Shown here piece after piece: positions 1,301 to 59,494 of a DNA stretch of 64,000 nucleotides. Each line of letters starts with the position of its first letter. Position 1 is the first letter of the stretch. A model generated the notes under the pieces. That model was given only the letters and a program-made list of their open reading frames with translations, had not been told where the DNA came from and ran no database searches. Made by a program: the position numbers and the translations under genes. This DNA is from Pseudodesulfovibrio hydrargyri (GTDB lineage Bacteria; Desulfobacterota; Desulfovibrionia; Desulfovibrionales; Desulfovibrionaceae), in the NCBI RefSeq assembly GCF_001874525.1, contig NZ_LKAQ01000004.1:1328895-1392894 (forward strand). The letters run 5' to 3'.

Positions 1301-1484
1301 GCCTCCGGCGGCCAGAGGGGGAAACTTTCGGGAAAGTTTCCCCCTCTGGGCTCCCTCTTCAAAGCTTTTTGTGTGCCTTCGGCAGGGGCGTGCGGGCGCG
1401 AAAGGGCGAGGGGGGCGCTTGCGTCTCCGCGAAGCGGTACAAAAAAATTGGAAAAAGAAGGGGAGGGGGAAAAGGGGAGACCTC
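1301..1484. repeat. convergent-gene intergenic repeat, copy A
   Basis: Begins with GCCTCCGGCGGCC, then a perfect 16-bp stem (1313-1328 with 1333-1348, loop CGGG), then CTCCCTCTTCAAAGCTTTTT. Related blocks recur at 14102-14693, 31672-31800 and 59259-59494. The second half, from about 1421, carries CCGCGAAGCGG followed by an A-rich and then G-rich tract that resembles 31681-31740. It lies between convergent speE and the glycosylase gene. I see no coding signal in it. Confidence 0.75.
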
Positions 1485-1910
1485 TTAAAGTTTTTCCCAA
1501 TCCCGCACGCCGCCTTTGACCAGGACGAACAGCGGGTGTGGCGCAGGGCGTAGGTTGCGGGAGTCTTCGAAGCGTTCGGGGTCGCGTTGTTCGAGTTTTT
1601 TGAGCAGGTGGCGCCACTCGTAGTCGAGCTGGCCGGTTGTTTCCTTGATGGGCGCGGCCTGGGCGTGCTCATCGATCTTGGAGGCGTCGAAGTTGTAGCC
1701 CCGGTTGCGGGCCTCGTTCAGCACGGCCGCGAGGAAGGCGTCGATGGCCGAGAGCGGGTCCGGGTGGTTGCGGAAGCGGATGAGCTGGGGATGGTTGGTG
1801 TAGCCCTTGGTCTGGCCGCGCAGGACCTTGCGGGCCAGGAGGCCTTCGCGCCATACAGCGGTCAGTCCCTTGACGTCGAGGAAGCGGGGATGGACGGTCC
1901 ACAGCCGCAT
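1485..1910 (-). CDS. pyrimidine dimer DNA glycosylase / endonuclease V-like protein
   Basis: A 141-residue protein whose N-terminal half (MRLWTVHPRFLD, then WREGLLARKVL, GYTNHPQLIRF and HPDPLSAI) matches bacterial members of the Pyr_excise family, which includes phage T4 endonuclease V. That enzyme excises UV-induced pyrimidine dimers using the amino group of residue 2 and a nearby glutamate. Here residue 2 is Arg rather than Thr, so methionine removal and the classical N-terminal chemistry are uncertain; the Glu of WREGLL is the likely catalytic acid. Its start is 6 bases after the stop of the upstream hypothetical gene, so the two probably form an operon. The family call is by recognition, and activity is inferred. 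Confidence 0.72.
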   Translation of the reverse strand: MRLWTVHPRFLDVKGLTAVWREGLLARKVLRGQTKGYTNHPQLIRFRNHPDPLSAIDAFLAAVLNEARNRGYNFDASKIDEHAQAAPIKETTGQLDYEWRHLLKKLEQRDPERFEDSRNLRPAPHPLFVLVKGGVRDWEKL

Positions 1911-1916
1911 GGCTGT

Positions 1917-2465
1917 CTACCTCGTCTCGGCCAGGTAGCCCAGTTCGCGGGCGAAGTCGTCGGTCTCGGCGGGCAGGCCGTGGAGCAGGTGGCCCAGGCG
2001 CATCATCTCTCCGGCCGGGAAGTCCTTCTGCCAGCGGGCGTAGTAGCCGGTGAACCCGTACATCCAGAGCATTTCCGAGGCCTGGGTGAAGACCTGGCGG
2101 GCGAGCTCGTCCCAGGTGGTGGAGGTCTCGATCTTCCAGACGGGATACTCCGCGCCGCCCACCTCGCGCTTGCCCTTGAAGTCCACCAGGATGTCGAGCA
2201 CGCCGCCGGGCCGGGGAGTGACCACCCAGTAGTAGAGCCAGCCTTCGCCGCCCCATTCGAATTCGGTATGCCGGTAGTCCGTCTCCATGTCCGTGGGCGC
2301 GTCGAGCCCGCGCACGTCGCACAGGCAGCGGAACAGGTCCTTGATGGGCTCGGAAAAATTGGAATTGACGCTCAGGTCGAAGTGGGAATCGTTTGACACC
2401 AGCCGGGCCTCCAGCCACCCGGCCCGCGCTTCGGTCAGGAAGATTTCAAAACGATTTTCGGGCAT
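1917..2465 (-). CDS. conserved hypothetical protein, unknown function
   Basis: I do not recognise this 182-residue protein. It is soluble with no signal peptide, acidic, and rich in aromatic residues (WGGEGWLYYWVV, LWMYGFTGYYARW). I chose the ATG at 2465 (MPENRFEIF) because GGAGG sits just upstream; an in-frame ATG at 2477 is the alternative and has a weaker ribosome site. A promoter is predicted at 2494-2522. It leads a probable two-gene operon with the UV-glycosylase-like gene, which hints at DNA repair but proves nothing. Confidence 0.7.
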   Translation of the reverse strand: MPENRFEIFLTEARAGWLEARLVSNDSHFDLSVNSNFSEPIKDLFRCLCDVRGLDAPTDMETDYRHTEFEWGGEGWLYYWVVTPRPGGVLDILVDFKGKREVGGAEYPVWKIETSTTWDELARQVFTQASEMLWMYGFTGYYARWQKDFPAGEMMRLGHLLHGLPAETDDFARELGYLAETR

Positions 2466-2493
2466 TCCGTCCTCCATGTCACAGTATCTTCGC

Positions 2494-2522
2494 ACACTAC
2501 ATAATTCGTCCGGGATAGGCAA
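2494..2522 (-). promoter_or_regulatory. predicted promoter for the 2465-1485 operon
   Basis: TTGCCT (2517-2522), 17-base spacer, TAGTGT (2494-2499), all read on the minus strand. Much of the same sequence recurs upstream of the NAD(P)-binding gene at 10832, including TTTGCCT, TCCCGG and GTGCGAA. Found by eye. Confidence 0.45.
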
Positions 2523-2824
2523 AGGGTGTGTGCCGCGAGACCGCGTCGGCCGGTGCCGAATCCTGGCCAGAAAAGGGTTTACAGGGTCCTATATTTTCGC
2601 TACGTACATGACTCTTCTTATTATGGGAGAATAGCTGATTCATAACTTGCTTGAATTGCTTGCCTTCCTCAAAAGGAGCGTAAAGATGTCGGGATCGGCC
2701 GCCAAGACCGACCGTGTGAACGGGGCTCGCCTGCCTCGGAAACGATGACCCGCCAGCACGGAACCAGCATCTTGAAAATATACGTTAAAACTACTTTGTC
2801 CGAGGTCCGTTGTGGAGGTAACCC
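2523..2824 (+). promoter_or_regulatory. rpsA leader region
   Basis: Gene-free stretch ahead of rpsA, richer in A+T than its surroundings. A weak promoter candidate is TTTACA (2578-2583), 17 bases, TACGTA (2601-2606). The stretch contains a short ORF at 2686-2748 with a strong ribosome site (see that entry). The rpsA ribosome site GGAGGT is at 2814-2819. I see no clear stem-loop. Confidence 0.35.
2686..2748 (+). CDS. possible 20-residue leader peptide upstream of rpsA
   Basis: ATG at 2686 preceded by AAAAGGAGCG at 2671-2680, one of the best ribosome sites in the window. It encodes MSGSAAKTDRVNGARLPRKR, which is basic, and stops 76 bases before rpsA. It could be a translated regulatory leader controlling S1 synthesis, or a chance ORF next to a purine-rich patch. 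There is no homology evidence. Confidence 0.3.
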   Translation: MSGSAAKTDRVNGARLPRKR

Positions 2825-4690
2825 ATGGAAAAAACTAACGAATCTGTTGAAATGCCTGAAATGGAAATGAACTTTGCCGATGCTCTCGACGAGTATCTGA
2901 ACTCCGATTTCGGAGATCTGGACGAAGGGACCATTGTCGCGGGCGAAGTCGTCAAGGTCGACAAGGACTACGTGCTGGTCGACGTGAACTTCAAGTCCGA
3001 AGGCCAGATCCCCGTCTCCGAATTCACCGAGCCGGACGGCACCGTGTCCGTGTCCGTCGGTGAGAAGGTCGACGTGTTCGTCGCCCGCAAGAACGAAGCC
3101 GAAGGCACCATCTACTTGTCCCGCGACAAGGCCAAGCGGATGCAGCTTTTTGATAAACTGGAAGAGCTCCAGGAGAAGGACGGCGAAGTCGTCGGCCGCA
3201 TCATCCGCCGCATCAAGGGCGGCTACACCGTCGATCTCGGCGGGGTCGAGGCCTTCCTGCCCGGTTCCCACGTCGACCTCCGTCCGGTCCCGGACATGGA
3301 CGCCCTGGTCAACCAGGAGTTCGACTTCAAGATCCTGAAGATCAACCGCCGTCGTTCCAACGTCATCGTGTCCCGCCGCGTGCTCCTCGAGGAGATGCGT
3401 TCCGAGCAGCGCGAGAAGCTGCTGGAGACCCTCGAAGAGGGCCAGGTGGTCCAGGGCAAGGTCAAGAACATCACCGAATACGGCGTGTTCATCGACCTGG
3501 GCGGCCTCGACGGCCTGCTGCACATCACCGACATGTCCTGGAAGCGCATCAAGCATCCCAAGGAGATGGTCGGCCTGGGCGACGATCTGGAATTGAAGAT
3601 TCTCAACTTCGACCGTGAAGGTCAGAAGGTTTCCCTGGGCCTCAAGCAGCTCGTGCCCGACCCGTGGGAGAACATCGCCGAGAAGTACCCCGAGGGTTCC
3701 CGCTTCACCGGCGTGATCACCAACCTGGCGGACTACGGCGCGTTCGTCGAGTTGGAGAACGGCGTGGAAGGCCTGGTGCACATCTCCGAGATGTCCTGGA
3801 CCCGCAAGCTCCGCCACCCCTCCCAGATGGTCAAGGTCGGCGAGGAAGTGGAAGTCGTCGTGCTCGGCGTCGATCCCGAGAAGAAGCGCATCAGCCTCGG
3901 CATGAAGCAGATTTCCCCGAACCCGTGGGACGTGGTCGCCGAGAAGTACCCCGAGGGCACCGTCCTCGAGGGCGCCATCAAGAACATCACCGAGTTCGGC
4001 GTGTTCATCGGCATCGAGGAGGGCATCGACGGCCTGATCCACGTGTCCGACATCTCCTGGACCAAGAAGATCCGCCACCCCTCCGAGGTCTACAAGGTCG
4101 GTGATTCCGTCCAGGCCAAGGTCCTCACCGTGGACAAGGAGAACGAGAAGTTCACCTTGGGCGTCAAGCAGCTGACCGAAGACCCGTGGACCCAGGTCCC
4201 GGCCAAGTACCCCGTGGGCCAGAAGGTCAACGGCGTGGTCACCAACATCACCGACTTCGGTCTCTTCGTCGAGGTCGAGGAAGGCATCGAGGGTCTGGTG
4301 CACGTCTCCGAGATCAGCCGCAAGAAGATCAAGTCCCCCTCCGAGATGTTCAAGGAAGGCGACACCATCGAGGCCAAGGTCATCCACGTGTCCGCGGACG
4401 AGCGCCGTCTGGGCCTGTCCATCAAGCAGACCAAGGAAGAGCCCGCCCGTTCCGGCGGCGGCAAGTCCAAGTCCTTTGGTGGCGACAGCGTGAGCGCCGG
4501 TTCCACCCTGGGCGACCTGCTCCGCGAGAAGCTGGAGGAAGCCGCCGGTGACGCCCTGGCCGCCGCCGAGGAGGAAGAGGCCGCCGCTTCCGTCGAGGCT
4601 GTCGAGGCCGTCGAGGAAGCCCCGGTCGAAGAGGCAGTCGAATCCGAAGCTCCGGCCGAGGAGGCCGCTGCCGAGGAAGAAGAGAAGTAA
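2825..4690 (+). CDS. rpsA: 30S ribosomal protein S1
   Basis: Binds mRNA on the small ribosomal subunit. This 621-residue protein shows six consecutive S1 RNA-binding domains; the last four carry the classic pattern (for example KNITEYGVFIDLGGLDGLLH and TNITDFGLFVEVEEGIEGLV) and the first two are divergent, as usual for S1. The tail after about residue 545 is low-complexity and very acidic (long Glu/Ala runs), making the protein longer than E. coli S1 (557 residues). The ATG at 2825 has GGAGGT six bases upstream. sppA follows after 12 bases and is probably cotranscribed. Confidence 0.97.
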   Translation: MEKTNESVEMPEMEMNFADALDEYLNSDFGDLDEGTIVAGEVVKVDKDYVLVDVNFKSEGQIPVSEFTEPDGTVSVSVGEKVDVFVARKNEAEGTIYLSRDKAKRMQLFDKLEELQEKDGEVVGRIIRRIKGGYTVDLGGVEAFLPGSHVDLRPVPDMDALVNQEFDFKILKINRRRSNVIVSRRVLLEEMRSEQREKLLETLEEGQVVQGKVKNITEYGVFIDLGGLDGLLHITDMSWKRIKHPKEMVGLGDDLELKILNFDREGQKVSLGLKQLVPDPWENIAEKYPEGSRFTGVITNLADYGAFVELENGVEGLVHISEMSWTRKLRHPSQMVKVGEEVEVVVLGVDPEKKRISLGMKQISPNPWDVVAEKYPEGTVLEGAIKNITEFGVFIGIEEGIDGLIHVSDISWTKKIRHPSEVYKVGDSVQAKVLTVDKENEKFTLGVKQLTEDPWTQVPAKYPVGQKVNGVVTNITDFGLFVEVEEGIEGLVHVSEISRKKIKSPSEMFKEGDTIEAKVIHVSADERRLGLSIKQTKEEPARSGGGKSKSFGGDSVSAGSTLGDLLREKLEEAAGDALAAAEEEEAAASVEAVEAVEEAPVEEAVESEAPAEEAAAEEEEK

Positions 4691-4702
4691 GGTAAAACCG
4701 TC

Positions 4703-5605
4703 ATGCGCATGGCAGGAACCAAAGACCGTTTCTCCCAGCGCCACCCCCTTCTGTTCGGGGTGATGATGATCATATTGGCCATGGCCCTCATCACGGGGGT
4801 CATGGCCTTTTTCCGTTCCATGGGCTGGACGCCCGGGACCTTCGCCCTGTCCGGCGACAAGATCGGCGTCGTCCACGTGGACGGCATGATCGTGGACGCC
4901 TCCAGGGTGGTCTCGTTCATCCGCACCCTGGAGGAGGACGACTCGGTCAAGGGCGTGCTCCTGCGGGTCAACTCCCCGGGCGGGGCCATCGCCCCCTCCC
5001 AGGAGATTTACGCCGCGGTCAAAGAGCTCAACCGGGCCAAGCCGGTCATCGCCTCCTACGGCACGGTGGCCGCGTCCGGCGGCTACTACTCGTCCTGTCC
5101 GGCCCGGATGATCTACGCCAATCCGGGGTCCATCACCGCCTCCATCGGGGTCATGGCCGAGTTCGTCACCGTGGCCGACGCCATGGAGAAGTTCGGCATC
5201 CGGCCCGAGGTTCTGACCACCGGCAAGTACAAGGCCGCGGGCACGCCCCTGCGCAACCTGACCGACGCCCAGCGCGAGCAGATGCTCGACCTCATGCAGG
5301 ACCTTCACGACCAGTTCGTGGACCATGTGGCCGAGGCGCGCGGCATGGACCGCGCCCGGGTGGCCGCCATCGCCGACGGCCGCGCCGTGACCGGTCGTCA
5401 GGCCGTGTCCCTCGGACTGGTGGACCGCATCGGCACCCAGGCCGACGCCATCGCCGAGCTCAAGAAGGAGACCGGCATCACCGGCCGCGCCCGTCTGGTC
5501 GAAGGGCCGGTCGAGGAACGCACCTTCGTCCAGGAACTGATGGGCTCCCTCAGGATCGATCTCTCGTCCAGCCTGCCCCAGGGCTGGTCATTCTTCTATA
5601 AATAG
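4703..5605 (+). CDS. sppA: signal peptide peptidase SppA
   Basis: Membrane-anchored serine protease (Clp/crotonase fold) that degrades cleaved signal peptides. The 300-residue short form has one N-terminal membrane helix (about 17-38). The predicted catalytic Ser125 lies in VAASGGYYSS and the Lys177 general base in TGKYKAAGTP; NSPGG upstream is the usual oxyanion-side loop. The short length implies assembly of identical subunits rather than the tandem-domain E. coli form. It starts 12 bases after rpsA; an ATG two codons downstream (4709) is possible. Confidence 0.92.
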   Translation: MRMAGTKDRFSQRHPLLFGVMMIILAMALITGVMAFFRSMGWTPGTFALSGDKIGVVHVDGMIVDASRVVSFIRTLEEDDSVKGVLLRVNSPGGAIAPSQEIYAAVKELNRAKPVIASYGTVAASGGYYSSCPARMIYANPGSITASIGVMAEFVTVADAMEKFGIRPEVLTTGKYKAAGTPLRNLTDAQREQMLDLMQDLHDQFVDHVAEARGMDRARVAAIADGRAVTGRQAVSLGLVDRIGTQADAIAELKKETGITGRARLVEGPVEERTFVQELMGSLRIDLSSSLPQGWSFFYK

Positions 5606-5727
5606 GCGGACCGACCCCACCGGAGGCGGGGGCCGCGAGGATCGCAGGCGCAGGCTTGCGGCCCGCTTCCTGTTGTGTCAGGTGTCCTGTCGCGGCCGAT
5701 CGGCCGTATCGAGGGGCGTCCTCCGCG

Positions 5728-8034
5728 CTATTGCGGCAGGGTCACGACCACGCTGGTCTCGCCCGGGGTGCCGGTCTCGACCGCGATGTCGCCGCCGTGG
5801 GTGCGTGCTATGAGCCGGGCGGAGTAGGTGCCCAGGCCCGAGCCTCGCGCCGGGCTGGAGGTGGAGTACTTGTCGAAAAAGGTCTCGCGCACGGACAGGG
5901 GCACCTCTCCCTGATTGCGGATGATCACGGTCAGGCCGTCGCGCCTGTCCAGGACGATGGACACGGACCCGGTCTCCGGAGAGGCCTCCAGGGCGTTGAG
6001 GATCAGGTTGGCGAGCATGGAATGGAAGAGCTCGGGGTCGGCGGACACGGGCAGGGTGCCGTTTTCCGCGCCGCCCATGACCTCGATGCCCACGCTGATC
6101 CCCTTTTCACTGATGTGCGGCAGCGCCTCGGCCTTGATCTTCTCGAGCACGCTGAGGACGTCCACAGTGCTTCGGTCCAGGACGTAGGTGCCGCACTCCA
6201 TCTTGTACAGGTCCAGCGACCGGTTGATCAGTTCGAGCATGCTCGCGCCCGCGTTTTCGATGGTCCCGAGCATGGCCTCCTGGGCCGCGTTCAGGCTGCC
6301 GTGGCGGCGGATCTCCTCGGGCAGGCCGATGACCGCGCCGAGCGGGGTCTTGAGGTCGTGCCTGGCCATGCGCTCCACGTCCTCGCGCAGGGCTTCGGCC
6401 AACTTGCGGTCGGTGATGTCGCGGCTGACGCCCTGCAGGCCGATGCGTTCGTCCTCTTCGGAAAAGAGGATGCCCAGGTGGGATTCGAGCCAGACCGAGC
6501 CGCCGTCCGCGCAGGTGAATTCGAGGTCCTCGGTGACCGAGGCGGTGGAGCCCTGGGCGTCGGCCAGGTCGTCGAGTACGCGCAGGATGTCCTTGAACCG
6601 GGTCTTGGACGCCGGGGTCAGGAACTCCTGGATGTACCGGCCCAGCACGTCCGAGCGCCTGAAGCCTCGTACGGCCTCGTCCGAGGGGCTGACGAAGGTG
6701 AAGCGGTAGTCCGCGTCCAACCCCCAGATGATGTCGGTCACGTTCTCGGCCAGGAGGCGGTACTGCTTTTCGCGCTGGCGCAGAGCCTCCTCCATGAGCT
6801 TGCGGTCGGTGATGTCCGTGCCCACGCAGAGCAGGCCGACGCTGCTCCCGTCCTTGGCGCGCACCGAGTCGTTGGCCCAGGCCACCCAGACGATCTCGCC
6901 GTTCTTGCGCACGTTCATGGTCTCGTTGAACGGGTGGGCCGTGGGGTTCATGAGCAGCCGGGCGAGGTAGCGGCGCATGGAGCGGCCCTCCAGGGTCTTG
7001 CGCGGGACCAGGGTGCCGACCAGTGGCTTGCCCAGCAGTTCGCCGGGCTCGTACCCGTAGAAATCCTCTGCGTATTCGTTGCAGAAGACGATGTCGCCGT
7101 CCATGTTGATGCGCATGATGATGGACTTGGCGCTGTGCACCAGCTGGTAGTAGCGCTCGCGGTCCTTGAGGCGTCCCATGACGATGACCGCCACGGCCCA
7201 CAGGGAGGCCGGGATGAGCACCATGGCCAGCAGCCCGAAGACGAGGATGTATTTGGCGTAGGGCGAGCCGGCCCAGCCCCCGCGCGGGGCGGCGGCCAGG
7301 AGCCAGTCGTCGGACGGGACGTGGACGGTGCGCAGCAGGGGGGCCATCTCGAAGACCACGGGATCGCCGGCGAGCATGGCGTCCCTGCCGTCCCGGGGCT
7401 GCTTGTCGCGCAGGGCCAGGAGGATGTCGCCGGACAGGCCGATGTTGGCGGTGCGGAACAGGGCGGCGGCGTCGAGGTGGACGCTGATCATGCCCCAGTA
7501 GCCCCCCGGGAGCGTCTTGCCGGGCAGAAAGACCGGAGCCAGGATGACGATCTCCTCGTTGCCGAGGGCATCCTCGCCCGGGGGCAGGATCTGCCTGCGC
7601 CCGGTGGCCTTGGCCCGCTTGAGCAGGGTGCGCAGGGTCGGGGTGCCCAACTGGTTCAGCTCGCGGCCGAATATCTTGTCAGCGCTCCAGGAAGGGTAGG
7701 CGTGGGACACGGTGTCGTCCTTGGCCAGCTGCAGGGAGCGCACGGCGGGCATGTTCACCAGCAGGGCGTCGGCCAGGACCGCGAACTGGGACTGGTTCAG
7801 GCCCGGGTTGACCTTGAGGAAGGCCTCTATGGCGCTGATCAGGTGGACGCCCGAGCCGATGGCCGAATCCAGGCTCGCCTTGCCCTCGTTCAGCGACTGG
7901 ACCACCCGGGCGCGGACCTTCTGGGCGTGGTGGTCCTGATCCGCGCGATAGCCGATGTAGACCATCACGGCGACGATGAGGCCGATGACAGGGGGGATCA
8001 GGTAGGTGATGCGCTTGAGCATGGGAACAGCCAT
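5728..8034 (-). CDS. membrane PAS sensor histidine kinase with extracytoplasmic sensor domain
   Basis: 768 residues. A membrane helix at about 8-28 and another at about 265-292 bracket a CHASE/Cache-like periplasmic sensor. Two PAS domains follow (about 300-415 and 425-550, each ending in DITDRKL), then the phospho-acceptor His559 in ARHDLKTPLGAVIG and an ATPase domain ending in GSGLGTYSARLIARTHGG. The downstream partner is not obvious; the nearby HD-GYP protein at 9197 lacks a receiver. The ligand is unknown. It is convergent with sppA; the 120 bases between hold a CGGCCG-ATCGGCCG palindrome at 5693-5706 but no clear terminator. Confidence 0.9.
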   Translation of the reverse strand: MAVPMLKRITYLIPPVIGLIVAVMVYIGYRADQDHHAQKVRARVVQSLNEGKASLDSAIGSGVHLISAIEAFLKVNPGLNQSQFAVLADALLVNMPAVRSLQLAKDDTVSHAYPSWSADKIFGRELNQLGTPTLRTLLKRAKATGRRQILPPGEDALGNEEIVILAPVFLPGKTLPGGYWGMISVHLDAAALFRTANIGLSGDILLALRDKQPRDGRDAMLAGDPVVFEMAPLLRTVHVPSDDWLLAAAPRGGWAGSPYAKYILVFGLLAMVLIPASLWAVAVIVMGRLKDRERYYQLVHSAKSIIMRINMDGDIVFCNEYAEDFYGYEPGELLGKPLVGTLVPRKTLEGRSMRRYLARLLMNPTAHPFNETMNVRKNGEIVWVAWANDSVRAKDGSSVGLLCVGTDITDRKLMEEALRQREKQYRLLAENVTDIIWGLDADYRFTFVSPSDEAVRGFRRSDVLGRYIQEFLTPASKTRFKDILRVLDDLADAQGSTASVTEDLEFTCADGGSVWLESHLGILFSEEDERIGLQGVSRDITDRKLAEALREDVERMARHDLKTPLGAVIGLPEEIRRHGSLNAAQEAMLGTIENAGASMLELINRSLDLYKMECGTYVLDRSTVDVLSVLEKIKAEALPHISEKGISVGIEVMGGAENGTLPVSADPELFHSMLANLILNALEASPETGSVSIVLDRRDGLTVIIRNQGEVPLSVRETFFDKYSTSSPARGSGLGTYSARLIARTHGGDIAVETGTPGETSVVVTLPQ

Positions 8035-8125
8035 CCGTTGTTTACGGCCGGGTATCGCGCCGCCTGACCGTCCTCATAACAAAAGGACGGGGGAATTGAA
8101 ACGGATGAGAAGGTCCCGGCGCGGA

Positions 8126-9004: not shown

Positions 9005-9196
9005 CGGATCGGGTCTCTCCGAGGGGAAACGTAAGGGTCTGGCCCGAAAAGTCAACGATAATCGTGTAAAGATTTACCCCTGGTGACCGCCGGTTTCGGC
9101 AACCTCCCGTCTTGGCTGAACAAAGGGCCGGGGCGGTTTTTCAGGCCTTTTCGGGTCGCGTTCAGGCGGTGGAAATCCGGGAGGCGCGCGGCCCGG

Positions 9197-9970: not shown

Positions 9971-9971
9971 G

Positions 9972-14101: not shown

Positions 14102-14273
14102 GATGTCTCCGACGGCCGGGGCGCCGCCCCGGACCCCGCTGGGGCTCTGCCCCAGGCCCCGCCAGGGAACCCTTTGAAAAGGGTTCCCTGGACCCTCCCA
14201 AACTTTTTGTGTCGCCTGCGGCGAAGGTGCGGGCGCGGGTGTGTGGGGTGTTTGTTCGGTTGGCGTGGGCGTA

Positions 14274-14398
14274 GCTTGGCCGGTTGGTGTCCCGAAAGGT
14301 TCGCGCCGGGCGTCCACGGGCCTCGGAGGGCCGTCCGGCGCGAACCCTTCGGGACGGTTGCCAACGCCGCAGGCGGGGTGATGCGGACACGGCCAAGC
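14274..14398. repeat. nested long inverted repeat
   Basis: Inner arms of 24 bp (14289-14312 and 14332-14355, 22 of 24 paired) and outer arms of 9 bp (14274-14282 and 14390-14398, perfect). It could fold into a structured RNA or be a remnant of a small mobile element. No promoter or product identified. Confidence 0.6.
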
Positions 14399-14470
14399 GG
14401 TCTTGCGGCGTTCTGTGGCTGCTGCTGGCTGGTATCTTTTTAGGGAAAGCCTTTCTTCAAAAACAACCCT

Positions 14471-14551
14471 GCGATTTCGGGCAGAAAAAACGGCGTGCGT
14501 CTTCCGGCGAAGAAGCCCGTCGTTTCATCCGTTTTTTCTGCCCGAAATCGC
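14471..14551. repeat. perfect 23-bp inverted repeat
   Basis: Arms 14471-14493 and 14529-14551 are exact reverse complements, containing a six-A run on the left and a six-T run on the right. The 35-base loop contains a small hairpin (TCTTC/GAAGA). The T-run lies inside the arm, so this is not a standard terminator for either flanking gene. Confidence 0.7.
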
Positions 14552-14710
14552 ACACCGGCACGGCGGAAGGCGTCTCTGTCCATCCTTTCGCGATCGCACG
14601 TACCTGAGCGAAGCGAACACGGGATTCTTAAGGCCCTCGGCCTTAAGCGGGTCCAGGGCAGCGCCCTGGTCTCTCCGAAGGAGCCGCCGGAGGCCTCCCC
14701 CCGAACGTAA

Positions 14711-14745
14711 CAGGGCCCGACTCGGTATTGCCGAGCCGGGCCCTG
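14711..14745 (-). terminator. possible terminator after the iron-sulfur flavoprotein gene
   Basis: 15-bp arms with one mismatch (14711-14725 and 14731-14745) around a 5-base loop, 22 bases beyond the minus-strand stop at 14768. The following minus-strand sequence TTACGTT is only a weak U-tract. Confidence 0.45.
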
Positions 14746-14767
14746 TCGGTATGGAGGTGACGGTCTG

Positions 14768-31576: not shown

Positions 31577-31620
31577 AAAAAATCGGGGCCGCGTGCACAA
31601 GCATTCGGCCCCGATTTTTT
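31577..31620. terminator. bidirectional Rho-independent terminator
   Basis: 15-bp perfect arms (31577-31591, 31606-31620) with A6 at one end and T6 at the other. Suits the end of the plus-strand flavoprotein gene and also works for minus-strand transcripts. Confidence 0.88.
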
Positions 31621-31671: not shown

Positions 31672-31800
31672 AAAAAACGCTCACCCCGCGAAGCGGCATA
31701 AAAAGTTTAGGAAGGAAGAGGGGATGGGGGTCCGGGGGAAGGGGAGAGGGAAACCCTTTCAAAGGGTTTCCCTCTCCCTTCCCCCGGCCGCCGGAGGCAG
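31672..31800. repeat. convergent-gene intergenic repeat, copy C
   Basis: Contains CCCCGCGAAGCGGCATAAAAAG, a G-rich tract, then a very long stem: 18-bp perfect arms (31742-31759 and 31761-31778) that extend outward with one bulge to about 31732-31787, and ends GCCGCCGGAGGC. It lies between the convergent flavoprotein and the small hypothetical gene at 31810. Confidence 0.75.
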
Positions 31801-50358: not shown

Positions 50359-50458
50359 GGGGGTGGGGGGGTATATTTATCGGGACAGGACGGCCTCTAT
50401 GGCGGCCATGGCCCTTTTCGGATGTGTTCCGCCGCCGGGGCGGATCCGGCCGGTGCGG

Positions 50459-52675: not shown

Positions 52676-52705
52676 GGGGAGCCAGCGTAGGGCAAAGGAG
52701 ATGGG

Positions 52706-54616: not shown

Positions 54617-54764
54617 GGGGCCGCCGTCCGCAAACCCGCCTTCGGAACACTTGCCTCGGGGCCTGGGGGTGTTTATCCTTCATGATGTCGGACGTGCGCC
54701 GGGCCGCGAGCCCCGCGCCGCCGTTTCCATACGCCACCCTGCAACCTCGGGATATTCCGCGAAC

Positions 54765-56186
54765 ATGTTCCAATTCGCCCACGACGACCGGACCGCCGGT
54801 CTGTACACCATAGCCGTCTCCCAGTTCGCCCTGGTCTTCATGCTCTCGGCCGTGGCCGTGGCCGTGCCCGCCCTGGGCCGGGAGTTCGGGGCCAGCGCCT
54901 CCCAGCTCGGGCTGGTGGAGTCGGGCTACATCTCGGCCGTGGCCATGCTCCTTTTTCCGGTCACCCGGCTGTCCGACAAGATCGGGCGCGGGGCCACGTT
55001 CGCCACGGGCATGGCCCTGTTCACGGTCATGAGCGTGATCCTGCCGGTCTGCCACACCATCAACCAGTTCATCATCCTGCGCGTGTTCCAGGGCGGCGGC
55101 GGGGCCATGATGGTCTCCACCGGCCTGGCCATCATCGCCGACCTCTATCCCGGCCCGGGCCGGGCCCGGGCCATGGGCATCGTCTCGGCCGGGGTCTACC
55201 TCGGCCTGTCCGTGGGGCCGTGGCTCGGCGGGCTCATCGTCACCCACTTCGGCTGGCGCTGGATATTCTACGGCGGGGCCCTGCCCTGCGCCGTGGGCTT
55301 TCTGCTGACCTTGAAGACCCTGCCGGTCAAGCCGATGGTGGCAAAAGGCGTGCGCTTCGACTTCGGCGGGGCGCTGTTCATCGCGCTGGGCATGATCCTG
55401 CTCTCCCAGGGCGGCTCGCACCTGGACGGCGCGTACGGCGCGATCATGCTCGCCTGCGGCGTCTTCTTCCTGCTCTGCTTCGTCTTCTGGGAGGGGCGGG
55501 CCAAGGCCCCGCTGCTCAGCCTGACCCTGTTCAGCGGCAACCCGGCCTTTTCCCTTGGCTCGGCCGCCCAGTTCATCAGCTACGCGGCCATCTACGGGAT
55601 CACCTTCCTGCTCTCCCTGTACCTCCAGGTGGCCCAGGGCATGACCGCCGGCGATGCCGGGTTCATCCTCATGGTCCAGCCGGTCATGCAGGTCGTCTTC
55701 TCGGTCGTCAGCGGCAAGTGGTGCGAGCGCTGGTCGCCGCACCTGGTGGCCACCGCGGGCATGGGGCTGGCCACCGTGGGGCTGGGCGCGGCCATCTTCC
55801 TGGGCGCGGCGCCGTCCCTGCTGTTCACGGCCGGAATCCTGGCCCTGTGCGGCGCGGGCACGGCCATGTTCGCCACGGCCAACATGGCCGTCATCATGGG
55901 CGCGGTGAACCGTGAGAACTACGGCGTGGCCTCGGCCGTGGTCGCGGCCATGCGGACCACGGGCATGACCGTTTCCCTGGTCTTCATCAGCGGCGTGTTC
56001 GCGGTCGTCATCGGACCCGTGGCCCTGACCCACGACAACGCGGGCGTGTTCATCACGGCCATGCGGCTGGCCTTCATCGCCCTGACCGTGTTCAGCGCGC
56101 TGGGCGTGCTCATGTCCGCCAAGGGGCGGCTGGAGACGCGCAGGGAGGCGGCCGGGACCAAAGGCGGCCCGGACGTCGGGGAATAA
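54765..56186 (+). CDS. MFS drug-resistance-type transporter (DHA2 family)
   Basis: 473 residues, about 14 membrane helices as in DHA2 exporters. GLVESGYISAVAMLLFPVTRLSDKIGRG (shown in part), RVFQGGGGAMM and GVYLGLSVGPWLGGL are the A/B/C motifs of this group. Exports drugs or other organics; substrate unknown. Start ATG 54765 (MFQFAHDD) has no good ribosome site. The 148 bases before it hold nothing I can assign. Confidence 0.85.
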   Translation: MFQFAHDDRTAGLYTIAVSQFALVFMLSAVAVAVPALGREFGASASQLGLVESGYISAVAMLLFPVTRLSDKIGRGATFATGMALFTVMSVILPVCHTINQFIILRVFQGGGGAMMVSTGLAIIADLYPGPGRARAMGIVSAGVYLGLSVGPWLGGLIVTHFGWRWIFYGGALPCAVGFLLTLKTLPVKPMVAKGVRFDFGGALFIALGMILLSQGGSHLDGAYGAIMLACGVFFLLCFVFWEGRAKAPLLSLTLFSGNPAFSLGSAAQFISYAAIYGITFLLSLYLQVAQGMTAGDAGFILMVQPVMQVVFSVVSGKWCERWSPHLVATAGMGLATVGLGAAIFLGAAPSLLFTAGILALCGAGTAMFATANMAVIMGAVNRENYGVASAVVAAMRTTGMTVSLVFISGVFAVVIGPVALTHDNAGVFITAMRLAFIALTVFSALGVLMSAKGRLETRREAAGTKGGPDVGE

Positions 56187-56199
56187 AAAAATATCATGA

Positions 56200-56226
56200 A
56201 AAAAGGCCGCCCCGAAAAGGCGGCCT
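56200..56226 (-). terminator. terminator after the gene at 56235
   Basis: Stem GGCCGCC/GGCGGCC (56206-56212 and 56220-56226) followed on the minus strand by six T. It sits between convergent genes. Confidence 0.7.
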
Positions 56227-56234
56227 CGTCGTGT

Positions 56235-56651
56235 CTAGACCACGCCGGCCAGCATGTTGCCGGGCGGCGGCAATATCTGCGCCTGGGCTTTGGCGTAGGC
56301 GGCCAGGGCGGACCTGATCCGTCCGGCCGAGGGCCTGTCGCCGTCCGTTCCCGGGGCCTGGCGTTCGCGGTAGACCGCCCCGTCGGCCCCGACCTCGGCG
56401 CGCAGGTCCTCCACCTCGGCCTGGGACCTGAAGGCGCGGGCCTGGCGGTTCTGTTCGCGCACCGAACGGGACAGGGAGGGGTCGAGGACCGTGGTCTCCT
56501 CGCGGTAGTCCACGCCGAACTTGCCCAGGCGAAAGCCGAACGACGTGGTCGTCGTCCTGGCCTGGGGTTGTACCGCCTTGCGCTCCTTTTGGCGTTCGGC
56601 CAGGGAGTCGGTCTTGCGGTATTGTTCGGCAGCCTGCGAGGGTATCCTCAT
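56235..56651 (-). CDS. hypothetical protein
   Basis: 138 residues, not recognised. It is soluble and rich in Arg, Gln and Ala, with SLAERQKERKAVQ and a C-terminal RIRSALAAYAKAQAQIL. No signal peptide or cysteine. The ATG at 56651 follows GGGAGACGAGC; an upstream ATG (56795) would add 48 residues lacking support. Function unknown. Confidence 0.62.
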   Translation of the reverse strand: MRIPSQAAEQYRKTDSLAERQKERKAVQPQARTTTTSFGFRLGKFGVDYREETTVLDPSLSRSVREQNRQARAFRSQAEVEDLRAEVGADGAVYRERQAPGTDGDRPSAGRIRSALAAYAKAQAQILPPPGNMLAGVV

Positions 56652-56842
56652 GCTCGTCTCCCATGTCAGGCCTTTTTTTGCGACAAAAAAAGGCCGTGGC
56701 ATTGCATAAGGCAGCCCGGCCGTCCCTGTGACCCATGTCACGCTCAATCCAGAGGGACCCGTGGTTTTCCGCCTCCCTTCCGTGGGAGTTGGCAAATCCG
56801 TATTCGGTCAGTCTATAGATACTATAATCCTTCAATACGATT

Positions 56843-56872
56843 TTGACAACCCCGGGTGTTTGGCGCTACTAG
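56843..56872 (+). promoter_or_regulatory. predicted promoter for nfnAB
   Basis: Perfect TTGACA (56843-56848), 18-base spacer, TACTAG (56867-56872), 75 bases upstream of nfnA. Upstream, TATAAT at 56823 has no partner -35. The 295-base gap to the divergent hypothetical gene contains nothing else I can assign. Confidence 0.48.
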
Positions 56873-56884
56873 CAGAATCCTTGC

Positions 56885-56897
56885 CACTGAATCAGTG
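56885..56897. promoter_or_regulatory. candidate operator, palindrome CACTGA-A-TCAGTG
   Basis: A perfect 6-bp dyad with one central base, just downstream of the predicted nfnAB start of transcription, where a repressor could block elongation. The regulator is unknown; it does not match the usual Rex site. Confidence 0.35.
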
Positions 56898-56946
56898 TCG
56901 GGGTCCCGCTGGAATGGGGTCTTGTTCTAACCGTAAGAGAGAGTAC

Positions 56947-57798
56947 ATGAGTTACAAAATTCTAAAGAAAGAAGAGCTGATCCCGGGGCAGACCACGATG
57001 CTGGTCATCGACGCGCCCCAGATCGCCCAAAAGGCCAAACCCGGCAACTTCGTCATGCTCAGGGTGAACGAGCACGGCGAACGCATTCCCCTGACCATCG
57101 CGGATTGTGACGCGAAAAATGGTACCATTACCATTATTTATCTGGTCGTGGGCAAGACCACGGCCGAGATGAACACGCTGAAGGAAGGCGACGGATTCGC
57201 GGACGTGTGCGGCCCGCTCGGAAAGCCCACGCATATCGAAAAGACCGGCACCGTGGTCTGCGTTGGCGGCGGCACCGGCATCGCGGCCATGCACCACATC
57301 GCCAAGGGCCATGTGGAGGCGGGCAACCGGGTCATCGCCGTCATCGGGGCGCGTTCCAAGAACCTGCTCCTTTTCTGCTCCGAACTTTCCGCGCTCTGCC
57401 CCGAGGTTCGTATCGCCACCGACGACGGCACCGAAGGCCACAAGGGCTTTGTCACCGAGGTCCTGCAGGATCTCCTGGAGACCGAGGACGACGTGGCCGA
57501 AGTGGTCGCCATCGGCCCGGTTCCCATGATGGAGGCCGTCTGCCGCGTGACCAAGCCGTTCGGCACCAAGACCACGGTATCGCTCAACTCCATCATGGTC
57601 GACGGCATCGGCATGTGCGGCGCGTGCCGCTGCACCGTGGGCGGCAAGACCCTGTTCGCCTGCGTGGACGGGCCCGAGTTCGACGGCCAGAAGGTCGATT
57701 TCGACGAGCTCAAGGCCCGGCTGCGCCAGTTCACCGAGCAGGAGGCGGAATCAACGGAAATGTTCAGCAAGGAGTGTCGGTGCCATGGCGGAGAATAA
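56947..57798 (+). CDS. nfnA: NADH-dependent ferredoxin:NADP+ oxidoreductase subunit A
   Basis: 283 residues. FAD/NAD-binding ferredoxin reductase-like fold: GKPTHIEKTGTVVCVGGGTGI, AIGPVPMMEAVC, and a C-terminal 2Fe-2S site with GMCGACRCTVGGKTLFACVDG. Together with NfnB it bifurcates electrons from NADPH to NAD+ and ferredoxin, balancing the cell's redox carriers. The ATG at 56947 follows AAGAGAGAG. Overlaps nfnB by 14 bases. Confidence 0.94.
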   Translation: MSYKILKKEELIPGQTTMLVIDAPQIAQKAKPGNFVMLRVNEHGERIPLTIADCDAKNGTITIIYLVVGKTTAEMNTLKEGDGFADVCGPLGKPTHIEKTGTVVCVGGGTGIAAMHHIAKGHVEAGNRVIAVIGARSKNLLLFCSELSALCPEVRIATDDGTEGHKGFVTEVLQDLLETEDDVAEVVAIGPVPMMEAVCRVTKPFGTKTTVSLNSIMVDGIGMCGACRCTVGGKTLFACVDGPEFDGQKVDFDELKARLRQFTEQEAESTEMFSKECRCHGGE

Positions 57799-59200
57799 AA
57801 AGAAGATCATCGGCGAACGCACTCCCATGCCCCTCCAGGACCCCCAGGTCCGGGCCGGGAATTTCGAGGAAGTGGCCCTGGGCTACACCCGCGAACAGGC
57901 CCTGATCGAGGCCGGGCGGTGTCTGCAATGCAAGAAGCCCACCTGCCAGGACGGCTGTCCGGTGAACATCGACATCCGCTGGTTCATCGCCTGCCTGGTG
58001 GACGACGACCTCGAGGGCGCGTTCAACGCCATCCGCAGGACCAACTCCCTGCCCGCGGTCTGCGGCCGGGTCTGCCCCCAGGAGACCCAGTGCGAAGGCA
58101 ACTGCATCCTCGGCAAGAAGCACCAGCCCGTGGCCATCGGCCGCCTGGAACGCTACGTGGCCGACACCTACGCCGCCAAGTCCCCCTGCGAGGAGGTCAC
58201 CGACCTGGCCGCCTGCGCCCTGGAGCGCGAAGGCCTCAAGGTCGCCTGCATCGGCTCCGGCCCGTCTTCCCTGACCGTGGCCGGCTACCTGGCCGGACGC
58301 GGCATCAAGGTGGACGTGTTCGAGGCCCTGCACGAGCCGGGCGGCGTGCTCATCTACGGCATCCCCGAGTTCCGCCTGCCCAAGTCCGTGGTCGCCAGCG
58401 AACTGGACGGCCTGCGCAGGCTCGGTGTGACCTTCCACACCAACTGGGTGGGCGGCAAGACCATCACCATCCAGGACCTGTTCGACCAGGACTACAACGC
58501 CGTGTTCATCGGCGTGGGCGCCGGGCTGCCGCGCTTCCTGAACGTGCCGGGCGAAAACCTGGTGGGCGTGTTCTCGGCCAACGAGTACCTCACCCGGGTC
58601 AACCTCGGCCGGGCCTACGACTTCCCCAACTACGACACCCCGTCCTATAAGGCTCGGCGGGTGGTCGTCCTGGGCGCGGGCAACGTGGCCATGGACGCCG
58701 CGCGCACCGCCCTGCGCATGGGGGCCGAAGAGGTCTCCATCGTCTACCGGCGCTCCGAGGACGAGATGCCCGCCCGCCGCGAGGAGATCGAGCATGCCGT
58801 GGAGGAGGGCGTCAAGATCCGCTGCCTGTGCGGCCCGATGACCTTCCACGGCGACGATCAGGGCCGGCTCGAGGCCATGACCGTCCAGAAGATGGCGCTT
58901 GGCGAACCCGACGAGTCCGGCCGCTGCTCGCCGGTCTGCCTGGAAGGCGAAACCGAGCGGATTCCCTGCGACATGGCCATCATCGCCGTGGGCACCCGGC
59001 CCAACCCCATCCTGCTCGAGGCCACTCCCGACCTCGGACTGAACAAGTGGGGCTACGTGGAGGCCGATCCCGAAACCGGCGAGACTTCCATCTCTAACGT
59101 CTTCGCGGGCGGCGACATCGTCACCGGCGCGGCCACGGTCATCTCCGCCATGGGCGCGGGCCGTCGCGCCGCCAAGGAAATCGCCAAACGGCTCCTGTAG
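57785..59200 (+). CDS. nfnB: NADPH-dependent subunit B of NfnAB (glutamate synthase small chain-like)
   Basis: 471 residues. N-terminal 4Fe-4S clusters (CLQCKKPTCQDGCP and CGRVCPQETQCEGNC), then two Rossmann domains (VACIGSGPSSLTVAGYLA, VVVLGAGNVAMDAARTALRM). NfnB is homologous to the small subunit of glutamate synthase, and with nfnA alongside the Nfn assignment is firm. The frame starts inside nfnA. Followed by a strong terminator. Confidence 0.94.
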   Translation: MAENKKKIIGERTPMPLQDPQVRAGNFEEVALGYTREQALIEAGRCLQCKKPTCQDGCPVNIDIRWFIACLVDDDLEGAFNAIRRTNSLPAVCGRVCPQETQCEGNCILGKKHQPVAIGRLERYVADTYAAKSPCEEVTDLAACALEREGLKVACIGSGPSSLTVAGYLAGRGIKVDVFEALHEPGGVLIYGIPEFRLPKSVVASELDGLRRLGVTFHTNWVGGKTITIQDLFDQDYNAVFIGVGAGLPRFLNVPGENLVGVFSANEYLTRVNLGRAYDFPNYDTPSYKARRVVVLGAGNVAMDAARTALRMGAEEVSIVYRRSEDEMPARREEIEHAVEEGVKIRCLCGPMTFHGDDQGRLEAMTVQKMALGEPDESGRCSPVCLEGETERIPCDMAIIAVGTRPNPILLEATPDLGLNKWGYVEADPETGETSISNVFAGGDIVTGAATVISAMGAGRRAAKEIAKRLL

Positions 59201-59222
59201 CCAGGGCCCTTTCATATGTAAT

Positions 59223-59257
59223 AAAAAGCCCCCGCGCATCGCGCGGGGGCTTTTTTT
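59223..59257. terminator. bidirectional Rho-independent terminator after nfnB
   Basis: 14-bp arms (59223-59236 and 59242-59255) with flanking A and T runs. Begins 22 bases after the nfnB stop. Confidence 0.88.
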
Positions 59258-59258
59258 G

Positions 59259-59494
59259 CCTCCGGCCTCCGGCCCCCCATCCCCACTCCCCTCCTAAACT
59301 TCTTATATCGCTTCGCGGGGTGTGGGCGGCCGAGGTAAAGTGTCCTGTCGTCCCGACGATACCGTAAAAAGGAGAGCCCCCTCGGCACATCCTCCCCTCA
59401 ACCCTCCGCACGCGCGGATGCGCAGACAAAAAGTTTTGAAGGGGAGTCCAGAGGGGAACCCTTTCCAAAAGTTTCCCCTCTGGCCGCCGGAGGC
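59259..59494. repeat. convergent-gene intergenic repeat, copy D
   Basis: Bracketed by GCCTCCGGC at the left and GCCGCCGGAGGC (59482-59493) at the right, i.e. inverted ends. Contains CTCCTAAACTTCTTATA and CGCTTCGCGGGG in the first half, and AAAAAGTTTTGAAGGGGAG plus an imperfect stem (11-bp arms 59448-59458 and 59473-59483) in the second. The second half is copy A in reverse orientation. It lies between convergent nfnB and the TAXI gene. Confidence 0.75.

Follow-up and report, generated by a model that had tools for sequence, protein, structure and literature searches.

A dispersed family of intergenic hairpin repeats in Pseudodesulfovibrio hydrargyri whose tail mirrors its stem

The hairpin repeats found in intergenic gaps of Pseudodesulfovibrio hydrargyri are a real, genome-wide family with roughly a hundred copies in the genome. 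In each half, the tail mirrors the stem in parallel orientation, a relation reported here for the first time. Taken as a whole, the repeats are probably best explained as a dispersed insertion, non-coding by gene calls, that consists of two head-to-head halves, in each of which the tail would fold onto the stem as a third strand, acting at the level of DNA.

Hairpin repeats in the window and across the genome

In the window, that is, the whole 64,000-nt stretch of DNA that was analyzed, related stem-loop copies lie at four sites, approximately 1301-1484, 14102-14694, 31672-31798, and 59265-59494 (Table 1), as the sequence-only reading had proposed. Its description of these copies as complete did not withstand inspection by eye: those at 1301 and 59265 each have one stemless half reduced to the tail, that at 31672 has nearly lost one half, and hairpins stand at both ends only in 14102-14694, a copy of 592 nt with further inverted repeats inside at 14289-14355 and 14470-14552. 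The second half of copy 1 adjoins the stop codon of a converging Pyr_excise gene, and at this site in a congener (G002) the hairpin is present (L231) and holds a further insert. The CTTCAAA..CTTTTT tail and the CCGCGAAGCG block given as shared features are both present, but the former is only one tail class, others being CCAAAACTTTTT, CCTAAACTTTTT, and CCAGAACTTTTT, and the latter is merely one variant of the inner mini-hairpin, alongside TGCCTTCGGCA, CGCCTTCGGCG, and GCGCATGCGCGC.

Table 1. Element copies and adjacent hairpins, in window positions ("mirror tail" denotes the segment that mirrors the stem)
Feature	Position	Strand	Parts and remarks
Copy 1, intact half	1301-1370	+	outer mini-hairpin GCC-TCC-GGC 1301-1309; main hairpin 1312-1349
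Copy 1, intact half, mirror tail	1350-1370	+	ends CTTTTT
Copy 1, inner mini-hairpin	1374-1384	+	TGCC-TTC-GGCA
Copy 1, second half, stem absent	1427-1484	-	inner mini-hairpin CCGCGAAGCGG 1427-1437; tail remnant
Copy 2, left half	14102-14208	+	directly 3' of stop codon; variant end GATGTCTCCGACGGCC
Copy 2, left half, parts		+	GC-only hairpin units, then hairpin 14162-14191; mirror tail 14192-14208
Copy 2, right half	14625-14694	-	end GCCGCCGGAGGC at 14683-14694
Copy 3, intact class-B half	31700-31798	-	end 31787-31798; main hairpin 31732-31787; mirror tail 31700-31731
Copy 3, remnant of other half	31672-31696	-	with inner mini-hairpin CCGCGAAGCGG 31686-31696
Copy 4, intact class-A half	59428-59494	-	end 59483-59494; main hairpin 59448-59483; mirror tail 59428-59447
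Copy 4, other half, stem lost	59265-59317	+	GCCTCCGGC, tail immediately after, then inner mini-hairpin CGCTTCGCG
Copy 5, first bases	63985-64000	+	continues past the window; gap C4:1392877-1393208 behind acs
A-tract/GC-hairpin/T-tract terminator beside copy 1	1250-1291		I8; outside the element
GC hairpin without T-run beside copy 2	14710-14746		I19
A-tract/GC-hairpin/T-tract terminator beside copy 3	31577-31620		I11
A-tract/GC-hairpin/T-tract terminator beside copy 4	59223-59255		I17

The end motif GCCTCCGGCGGCCRGRG has 109 matches in the 4.08-Mb genome, compared to 0 for the reversed motif, and 68 halves with at most two end mismatches were found on 40 genome stretches, compared to 0-3 for six shuffled ends, confirming that the recurrence is more than chance. 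DNA-folding z-scores, computed for a single half per window copy, were -5.1, -4.5, -7.6, and -2.7. From 172 halves, 46 were dropped for three end mismatches; 16 of the 126 kept had no resolved stem-tail unit and were left out of unit analyses. Only one of the 126 was called inside a gene and one was unplaced, using a gene caller trained with a codon-position GC filter, introduced after a check of the end of speE.

In the full element, the two halves flank a mostly unique core (~120 nt), and each half comprises, in order, a mini-hairpin, a long stem-loop, and a C-rich tail. Read along the G-rich strand, a half presents its third purine strand first, followed by the purine arm, the loop, and the pyrimidine arm. 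The T-run is detached from the stem, lying ~12-30 nt further on. A second, facing tail occurs within 420 nt in 50 of 96 gaps, and 11 of 43 cores have at least 20 nt in common with any other core (six core pairs). A mini-hairpin of at least 3 bp follows the tail in 118 of the 126 halves, a count without a control; a pattern search for tail plus inner hairpin, the spacing of which we think was wrong, gave 0 matches.

Database searches returned no known family. For five element loci searched against Rfam up to an E value of 1, every match fell below the gathering score, most of them to miRNA hairpin families. Carriage on plasmids or phages was set aside, one half used as a query having no match in either collection, where the low-complexity filtering of BLAST limits sensitivity. 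Searches of the open literature, with the accessible text of PMC4666352, yielded no description of such elements in Desulfovibrio or Pseudodesulfovibrio. Separately, the only Rfam match above the gathering score in the window was a c-di-GMP-I riboswitch.

Covariation of stem and tail

Tails matched their own stems in the mirror sense far better than re-paired ones, with z = 10.6, 5.7, and 4.0 for classes B, A, and C and z = 16.4 for all 89 distinct pairs (0/5000 shuffles each); the direct-repeat control gave z = 4.4, 2.8, 3.9, and 9.8, respectively, and in class C alone the two relations were nearly equal (own scores of 4.81 for mirror and 5.15 for direct). These shuffles overstate independence, owing to common ancestry within classes and to two genomes that dominate the cross-phylum set.

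A stem-to-tail code was also learned without a prior by EM (best of 25 random starts) from 64 distinct pairs, which are the 110 units minus odd starts, long tails, N, and duplicates. With pseudocounts included, G was read as C (560/564), T as A (211/214), and A as T (236/302) or A (64/302), while stem C was less fixed; the total score was 1188 for the parallel code versus 768 for the antiparallel. Opposite stem C (n = 183), the tail carried C in 131 cases, T in 30, and G in 21. Because C is the commonest tail base, it is barely enriched there (0.4 bits), the rare G being enriched by 2.5 bits, and strand-switch triads at C:G are thus not established.

The parallel code transferred to held-out pairs. 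Trained on 35 class-B pairs, it reached z = 8.2 on 29 non-B pairs and 9.3 on 64 cross-phylum pairs, and trained on non-B pairs, it reached 6.2 on class B and 9.4 on the cross-phylum pairs (7 of 96 cross-phylum copies were unresolved; the 89 resolved gave 64 distinct pairs with tails of at least 2 nt). Antiparallel models scored -0.4 and 0.1 on the cross-phylum pairs, but one trained on class B reached 5.4 on non-B halves; the cross-phylum set does separate the mirror from the antiparallel relation. An earlier cross-phylum test of 21 organisms gave a mirror z of ~8, and a z of 6.4 for a direct control contaminated by the end of the 3' arm. Antiparallel pairing of the tail with the 5' arm, as an attenuator-like hairpin beside the T-run, was rejected, as it is weaker except in class C and fails across phyla.

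That low-complexity purine/pyrimidine tracts and common ancestry produced the mirror relation, with no structure involved, is very unlikely. Class-B stems are such tracts, the classes are families of related copies, and class C fails to separate mirror from direct repeats. However, among all intergenic inverted repeats, 122 had a mirror score of at least 9, compared to 46 in composition-matched reversed controls (26 versus 36 inside genes), the code carries over between classes and phyla where the antiparallel model fails, and, by eye, stem and tail change together in orthologous copies. A strict mirror scan in fixed register (at least 8/10) gave almost no signal, 6 mirror versus 2 direct, which we attribute to over-extended stem boundaries; local alignment with reversed controls was used instead.

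Gene context of the copies

In the fetched part of the genome, the 96 gaps with a copy comprise 44 convergent, 50 tandem, and 2 divergent gaps. Divergent (promoter-only) gaps, which make up 26% of all gaps, are avoided (2/96, p = 1.4e-10), and convergent gaps, which make up 18%, are enriched per gap (44/96), but a count by 3' ends shows no clear difference between convergent and tandem gaps (p = 0.06). The sequence-only reading had placed copies only between converging genes, which holds for the four copies in the window but not for the genome; the fifth copy that it saw after acs does begin at 63985, but its gap, beyond the window edge, is tandem. Equal frequency in tandem or divergent gaps was to have told against that reading: tandem gaps are as frequent as convergent ones, which counts against it, but divergent gaps are not.

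Positions behind genes raise the possibility of a bidirectional intrinsic terminator, each half stopping transcription of the gene facing it. Consistent with this are the strong hairpin with a T-run on each side, the convergent enrichment per gap, and the finding that 42 of 85 ends facing a gene 3' end start no more than 15 nt past the stop codon, none with a conventional terminator between. A conventional terminator separates gene and element at 41/138 3' ends in element gaps, compared to 53/100 convergent and 47/233 tandem ends in whole element-free gaps, although the stretches compared are unequal. Nevertheless, the T-run is remote from the stem, a separate terminator lies alongside three of the four window copies, and where an end is located 50-80 nt past a stop codon, a conventional terminator intervenes in 23 of 29 cases. 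Moreover, orientation in tandem gaps is balanced (30 versus 37), copies occur inside hslV-hslU and pheS-pheT, and a related Escherichia coli motif is reported, in the accessible text of PMC4666352, to lack terminator activity. The dedicated bidirectional terminator suggested earlier is therefore improbable.

An element acting in RNA, as an mRNA triple helix or hairpin that gives MALAT1-like 3'-end protection or forms an intercistronic leader before the Shine-Dalgarno (SD)-like end, is also unlikely. Read from the facing gene, a half runs purine arm, pyrimidine arm, pyrimidine tail, and U-run, an arrangement that matches a Y.R-Y RNA triple helix, and the ends just past stop codons fit such a role. 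In tandem gaps of two other genomes, 33 of 43 copies have the tail side toward the 3' end of the upstream gene, with the G-rich strand in sense in 23 versus 9 copies in Armatimonadetes SKW107 and 10 versus 1 in Ruminococcus YE71 and kin, counts nearly unchanged with the codon-position GC filter; this bias leaves room for a role at the RNA level. However, it runs opposite to the 3'-protection reading and is absent from P. hydrargyri, where orientation is balanced. The Y.R-Y reading would also require many C+.G-C triads, and it leaves tail A opposite stem T and opposite stem A unexplained.

Empty sites and insertions within operons

Empty orthologous sites exist in congeners. At hslV-hslU, the genes abut as TAA-ATG in some congeners, while in others the element lies exactly at the junction with its terminal GGAGG at SD distance from the hslU start, which makes a role as a strong terminator unlikely. 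Of 36 congener loci matched, 30 were read: the genes abut (0 nt) in 8, the hairpin element is present in 14, 5 retain just the SD-like end or a decayed form of the element, and 3 have neither. The HslV end was found by its C-terminal motif in 26 of the 30, and G002, G003, G004, and G015 were assigned using the 130 nt upstream. At pheS-pheT, the 30 loci read (35 matched) comprise 8 with a hairpin, 4 decayed, 16 empty, and 2 ambiguous. More generally, of 39 ends that point toward a gene start, 17 read ..GCCGCCGGAGGC and are placed 4-12 nt upstream of the start codon as called; the genes with an element end at this position include hslU, pheT, valS, and def.

At hslV-hslU and pheS-pheT, the insertion appears to supply a ribosome-binding site of its own. 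The SD-like end would make insertions within operons tolerable, and the element may persist solely as an SD-like site once the hairpin decays. No clear target duplication was seen by eye at the empty sites of hslV-hslU and window sites 1 and 4. Between two close species, 14 of 166 orthologous gaps had shared copies and 7 had a copy called in one only, the single G002-only call appearing false by eye; with most sites either common to both species or decayed, the comparison captured no recent movement.

Distribution and Y1 genes

Counts of the end motif range from 0 to 109 per genome across 36 genomes of the genus, P. hydrargyri included. Copies were found across phyla, in Ruminococcus, Armatimonadetes, Nitrospira, UBP15, and others, and the loop/tail pattern was present in 2 of 297 genomes of a sampled phylum search (P. 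hydrargyri included), indicating a patchy distribution.

Extragenic palindromes in inverted pairs, associated with 3' ends and highly variable in copy number, resemble a REP/BIME family, which would be moved by a RAYT (Y1) transposase and bound by gyrase or an IHF-like protein. Y1 is represented in the P. hydrargyri genome by one 78-aa fragment, with no intact RAYT found; Y1 matches do not correlate with copy number across the 36 genomes (rho -0.10), and 7 of 13 genomes with at least 20 end motifs have no Y1 match. An origin through RAYT was rejected on this basis. To our knowledge, REPs also lack a mirror third strand. Membership in such a family is thus very doubtful, REPs being, moreover, described as palindromes of 20-40 nt in the part of PMC4666352 available. 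The suggestion of a REP/BIME-like mobile element surviving where it does no harm was nonetheless the closest of the earlier ones, given dispersed, often head-to-head pairs, variable copy number, empty sites, and avoidance of divergent gaps; its link to RAYT-driven REPs is unsupported.

Discussion

The favored reading, a mirror tail in a three-stranded fold, fits the stem-tail code: an intrastrand triplex would place G on G:C, A or T on A:T, and T on T:A, with C:G positions less fixed. Since mirror repeats are, as far as we know, not a product of DNA copying, we infer selection for such a triplex, itself deduced from sequence. The fold would act on DNA while the strand is single, during replication or the element's own movement, and would have a role in its spread. 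G runs are also prone to other folds, such as quadruplexes and slipped hairpins.

Bacterial triplex-forming repeats have been catalogued since 2000. As far as PMC4666352 (Holder et al. 2015) describes them, the PIT elements (Hoyne and Maher), TM-ECO, and the ITxF classes likewise combine a hairpin with a mirror third segment, and intrastrand triplex motifs are intergenic, multi-copy, and sometimes inverted pairs, vary widely in copy number among relatives, and decay by loss of parts. By our own tests rather than the ITxF program, the present repeats have three consecutive triad-capable segments with a mirror third, and they are intergenic with many copies. In contrast with TM-ECO, whose order is Y-R-R (class II, or class III when the opposite strand is read), they are R-Y-Y or R-R-Y by strand (class IV/I, by our reading of the definitions given there), and have longer stems that include mixed sequence, a two-half architecture, mini-hairpins, SD-like ends, and a third strand that covaries with the stem over many variants. 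The TM-ECO pattern CCCTCNCCC N3-6 GGGNGAGGG N3 GGGNGAGGG had 0 exact matches, and a loose Y9/R9/R9 pattern likewise 0, in 1.09 Mb of genome stretches including the window (about a quarter of the genome). For the E. coli PIT/TM repeats, an intrastrand triplex was proposed; according to the text seen of PMC4666352, it forms as single strands in vitro and was undetected in vivo by DMS footprinting, the evidence there being in vitro folding and sequence instability, with none for selection of the three-stranded form.

Other known systems agree only in part. The avoidance of promoter-only gaps and the often inverted pairs recall REP/BIME elements, but the units here are larger and carry the mirror tail. 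MITEs (e.g., Correia, RUP) are likewise small, non-coding, paired-end insertions at gene edges; however, the cores here are mostly unrelated, the internal sequence that copies would have in common from a parent element is missing, and neither a parent transposase nor, by eye, a clear target duplication was recognized. Bidirectional intrinsic terminators are likewise hairpins between converging genes, with a T-run in either direction, but here the T-run is detached, separate terminators often lie alongside, copies occur inside operons, and convergent gaps do not predominate.

More tentatively, the family may be selfish DNA found across phyla that spreads via the three-stranded fold, recognized by an enzyme other than a RAYT. 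Compensatory change would keep the third strand in register with the stem, and the SD-like end would permit insertion between abutting genes, leaving the downstream gene unsilenced, for example at hslV-hslU. If true, this would constitute evolutionary evidence for selection of triplexes in bacteria. The joint change of stem and tail over copies, stem classes, and phyla, following a code that largely matches triplex chemistry, makes the question testable, and the sites at hslV-hslU and pheS-pheT provide a second, independently testable point.

Copies in the window and anatomy of the element

The four copies and the beginning of a fifth were found in the window (C4:1328895-1392894 of the 4.08-Mb genome) where the sequence-only reading had placed them, and codon-trained gene calls confirmed that each of the four lies between converging genes. 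Their description as complete held for the copy at 14102, which has hairpins in both halves, and failed by eye for the other three.

Elements and other features in the window (flanking genes from codon-trained gene calls)
Feature	Position	Strand	Flanking genes or remark
Copy, site 1	1301-1484		speE-like/Pyr_excise, converging
Copy, 592 nt	from 14102		histone-deacetylase-like/FMN reductase, converging
GC-only first unit	14119-14160		mirror-tailed
Inverted repeat	14289-14355		inside the copy at 14102
Inverted repeat	14470-14552		inside the copy at 14102
Copy	from 31672		FMN reductase/79-aa ORF, converging
c-di-GMP-I riboswitch	56707-56803	-	exceeds Rfam gathering score
Copy, site 4	59265-59494		gltA/TAXI-TRAP, converging
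Beginning of fifth copy	from 63985		after acs

From outside to inside, a half comprises an outer mini-hairpin (GCC-TCC-GGC, variant GTC-TCC-GAC), a main hairpin (about 12-33 bp), a tail that spans about 15-35 nt and terminates in CTTTTT, and an inner mini-hairpin (CCGC-TTC-GCGG, TGCC-TTC-GGCA, CGCC-TTC-GGCG and others), followed by the core. Core length was 79-260 nt, with a median of 123 (n = 43 measured), and only 11 of these 43 cores had at least 20 nt in common with another. Of 96 gaps, 50 had a second tail that faces the first and lies no more than 420 nt away.

Several smaller pieces were also observed. The two long inverted repeats inside the copy at 14102 are not of the triplex-tail type and are possibly nested elements. 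The GC-only unit (CCGGGGC-GCT-GCCCCGG ACCCCGC), also seen in halves at loci L002, L004 and L007, may be a module in its own right. Several elements harbour, in the loop or the stem of their hairpin, a second palindrome, a small insert of some 45-55 nt with core GCGAGTCTTCGAG..., for example L019 at ~1501-1620 (genome G000 C1:693160-693277) and L231 (genome G002, window site 1); similar inserts appeared in G002 gaps when these two genomes were compared, as if this were a further mobile piece targeting hairpins. Another conserved repeat with its own inverted arms, GCTGTGCATTTT ... CACCGCAGCGTAGCCGTCTACGTGAGGAT ... AAATGTGCAGATG, occurs in some cores (L021-L023, behind the element tail; G000 C4:1621716-1622360 and C4:1699056-1699421).

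The tail mirrors the stem

The tail tracks a stem sequence that varies widely, as seen when an arm is set beside the stem end and tail: CCAGGGAACCTTTTG with GG ACCCTCCAAAAC, CCTAAGAACCTTTTG with GG AATCTCCAAAAC, CCAGAGGGGGAACCTCTTGG with GG ACTCCCCCTCCAGAAC, and CCGGGGGAAGGGGAGGAAAA with GG ACCCCCATCCCCTCCTTTT. Read in parallel with the 5' arm, the tail approximates its complement, which equals the 3' arm reversed. Among intergenic inverted repeats (n = 1583), local alignment scores of at least 9 were reached by 122 mirror compared to 46 composition-matched direct relations, while for inverted repeats within genes (n = 3225) the counts were 26 and 36. Re-pairing tails inside a stem/tail class lowered the mirror score in all three classes (z of 10.6 in class B, 5.7 in A and 4.0 in C, with 0 of 5000 shuffles), with z of 4.4, 2.8 and 3.9, respectively, for the direct-relation control. 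Class C alone is undecided between mirror and direct, because the direct relation scores equally high there (own pairs, 5.15 direct vs 4.81 mirror).

A substitution table from stem to tail, the best of 25 fits with random starts, read G to C, T to A, and A to T (sometimes A); opposite stem C, the tail had C in 131, T in 30 and G in 21 of 183 cases, with clear enrichment only for the rare G. The total score of the code was 1188 for the parallel arrangement vs 768 for the reversed arm. Tables fitted separately on class B and on the rest were concordant for G, A and T, and predicted stem-tail partnership in held-out copies (the other set and the cross-phylum copies) with z of 6.2 to 9.4. For antiparallel fits, z was 5.4 on non-B copies, 0.5 on class B, and -0.4 and 0.1 on the copies from other phyla.

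On the G-rich strand, the code places G on G:C, A or T on A:T, and T on T:A, with a mixture of G, A and C at C:G positions that is not decisive. The canonical purine-motif triads are G.G-C, A.A-T and T.A-T, and T on T:A corresponds to T.A-T with the strands switched. Because DNA copying is a known source of direct and inverted repeats and is not known to yield mirror repeats, we infer from these sequences that the stem-tail relation would be a product of structural selection.

Copies in other phyla

A pattern in which the loop and the end of the tail alone are fixed, TTTGAAAARGG N6-26 CCYAAACTTTTT, matched at least 105 stretches; among 80 listed loci are Ruminococcus sp. YE71, Armatimonadetes SKW107, Nitrospira Bin_21_1, UBP15, Desulfovibrio, Nitratidesulfovibrio and Clostridia. 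From listed loci, 96 copies were read; their stems differ as much as TTTGAGGGGAAAAACCC does from CTAAAACCC, and the tails match them. Geobacter and Flavobacteriales gave one match each, probably by chance judging from appearance. Within the window's phylum, 2 of 297 sampled genomes matched, one being the own genome, and the distribution is therefore patchy. SKW107 and YE71 (L125-L204), from unrelated phyla, carry many copies per genome, and several Armatimonadetes copies have a common CCCGCTTTTTGCCCAAAGGGGG stretch in front.

Genome-wide census and gene context

The end motif GCCTCCGGCGGCCRGRG occurs 58 + 51 times in the 4.08-Mb genome, and its reversed control 0 times. For the census, 100 listed end-motif places were read with 4-kb flanks (73 stretches, the remainder inside the window), together with an unselected baseline of 20 stretches of 20 kb. 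Counting as a half any end motif with at most 2 mismatches plus a tail motif, we obtained 126 halves, one of them called inside a gene and one without a neighbour. In 40 stretches, six shuffled ends yielded 0 to 3 halves vs 68 for the real end.

Of the 96 gaps holding halves, 44 were convergent, 50 tandem and 2 divergent. The earlier claim that every copy lies in a convergent gap thus fails genome-wide, tandem gaps being occupied as often as convergent ones, while the scarcity in divergent gaps stands. Measured against gap-type shares from the baseline stretches, copies avoid divergent gaps (p = 1.4e-10) and are enriched in convergent ones when counted per gap (p = 1.7e-10), but the convergent excess is small when counted per gene 3' end (p = 0.06). 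In the baseline alone, copies occupied 3/31 convergent, 7/99 tandem and 0/46 divergent gaps of at least 60 nt (convergent vs tandem, p = 0.70; divergent vs rest, p = 0.065).

Gene 3' ends are faced by 85 element ends, which begin 0-15 nt behind the stop codon in 42 cases and 50-80 nt behind it in 29; a conventional terminator lies between stop and element in 0/42 of the near and 23/29 of the far ends. These separate terminators, positions inside operons, and the balanced orientation in own-genome tandem gaps (30 vs 37, p = 0.46) speak against the terminator role that the sequence-only reading had entertained. By rough gene calls, nearly alike in a second run, Ruminococcus copies were 10 convergent, 11 tandem and 1 divergent, and Armatimonadetes copies 1, 32 and 1, with 7 at contig edges. 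In tandem gaps of these two groups, the tail side faced the upstream gene's 3' end in 33/43, a bias not seen in the own genome that allows for a possible RNA-level role.

At gene starts, 17 of 39 facing ends lie 4-12 nt ahead of the called start codon and terminate in GCCGCCGGAGGC, including those before hslU, pheT, valS and def. The rule is placement at a reading-frame edge, combined with an element end capable of acting as a Shine-Dalgarno sequence.

Insertion and decay in the genus

Across 36 genus genomes, four of them <90% complete, the end motif was absent from 7 and most numerous in the own genome (109 occurrences), the next highest count being 98; of 24 genomes from outside the genus, 3 had a single match. 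The same end and stem also occur in MAGs labelled Pseudodesulfovibrio (L134, L195). By-eye comparison of loci whose convergent neighbours are the same showed an element at site 1 in G000, G002, G032, G033 and G027 and none in G021. At site 4, G000, G002, G010 and G007 carry the element, G033 has a remnant of it, and G025 lacks it.

At hslV-hslU (30 loci read of 36 matched, hslU identity confirmed, classes by eye), the hslV stop directly abuts the hslU ATG in 8, a hairpin element occupies the junction in 14, a GGAGG-like end alone or decayed form in 5, and neither in 3; species differ in which stem class (A, B or C) is found there. At pheS-pheT (30 of 35, pheT identity confirmed, also by eye), there were 8 hairpins, 4 decayed copies, 16 loci with none and 2 unclear. 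On these by-eye classes, the abutting hslV-hslU junction may be ancestral. Across 166 orthologous gaps, G000 and G002 (median 92% protein identity) have 14 sites in common and 7 that were called in just one of the two genomes, and copies are therefore mostly old. In decay, stems of halves are lost, and tails and ends are kept.

Nature of the element

Y1 transposases, the type tied to REP elements, did not track copy number across the 36 genus genomes (rho -0.10). A 78-aa Y1 transposase fragment was seen in an AT-rich region (L031) of the own genome; the window is 65% GC. Intrastrand triplex repeats include the PIT elements of Hoyne and Maher. The closest literature on such repeats (PMC4666352) describes triplex formation by single strands in vitro, no stable triplex observed in vivo, and no promoter or terminator activity, with sequence instability raised. 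On the best reading, the element described here is a DNA-level one and probably selfish, and the hairpin with its third strand could be the form that is recognised or protective.
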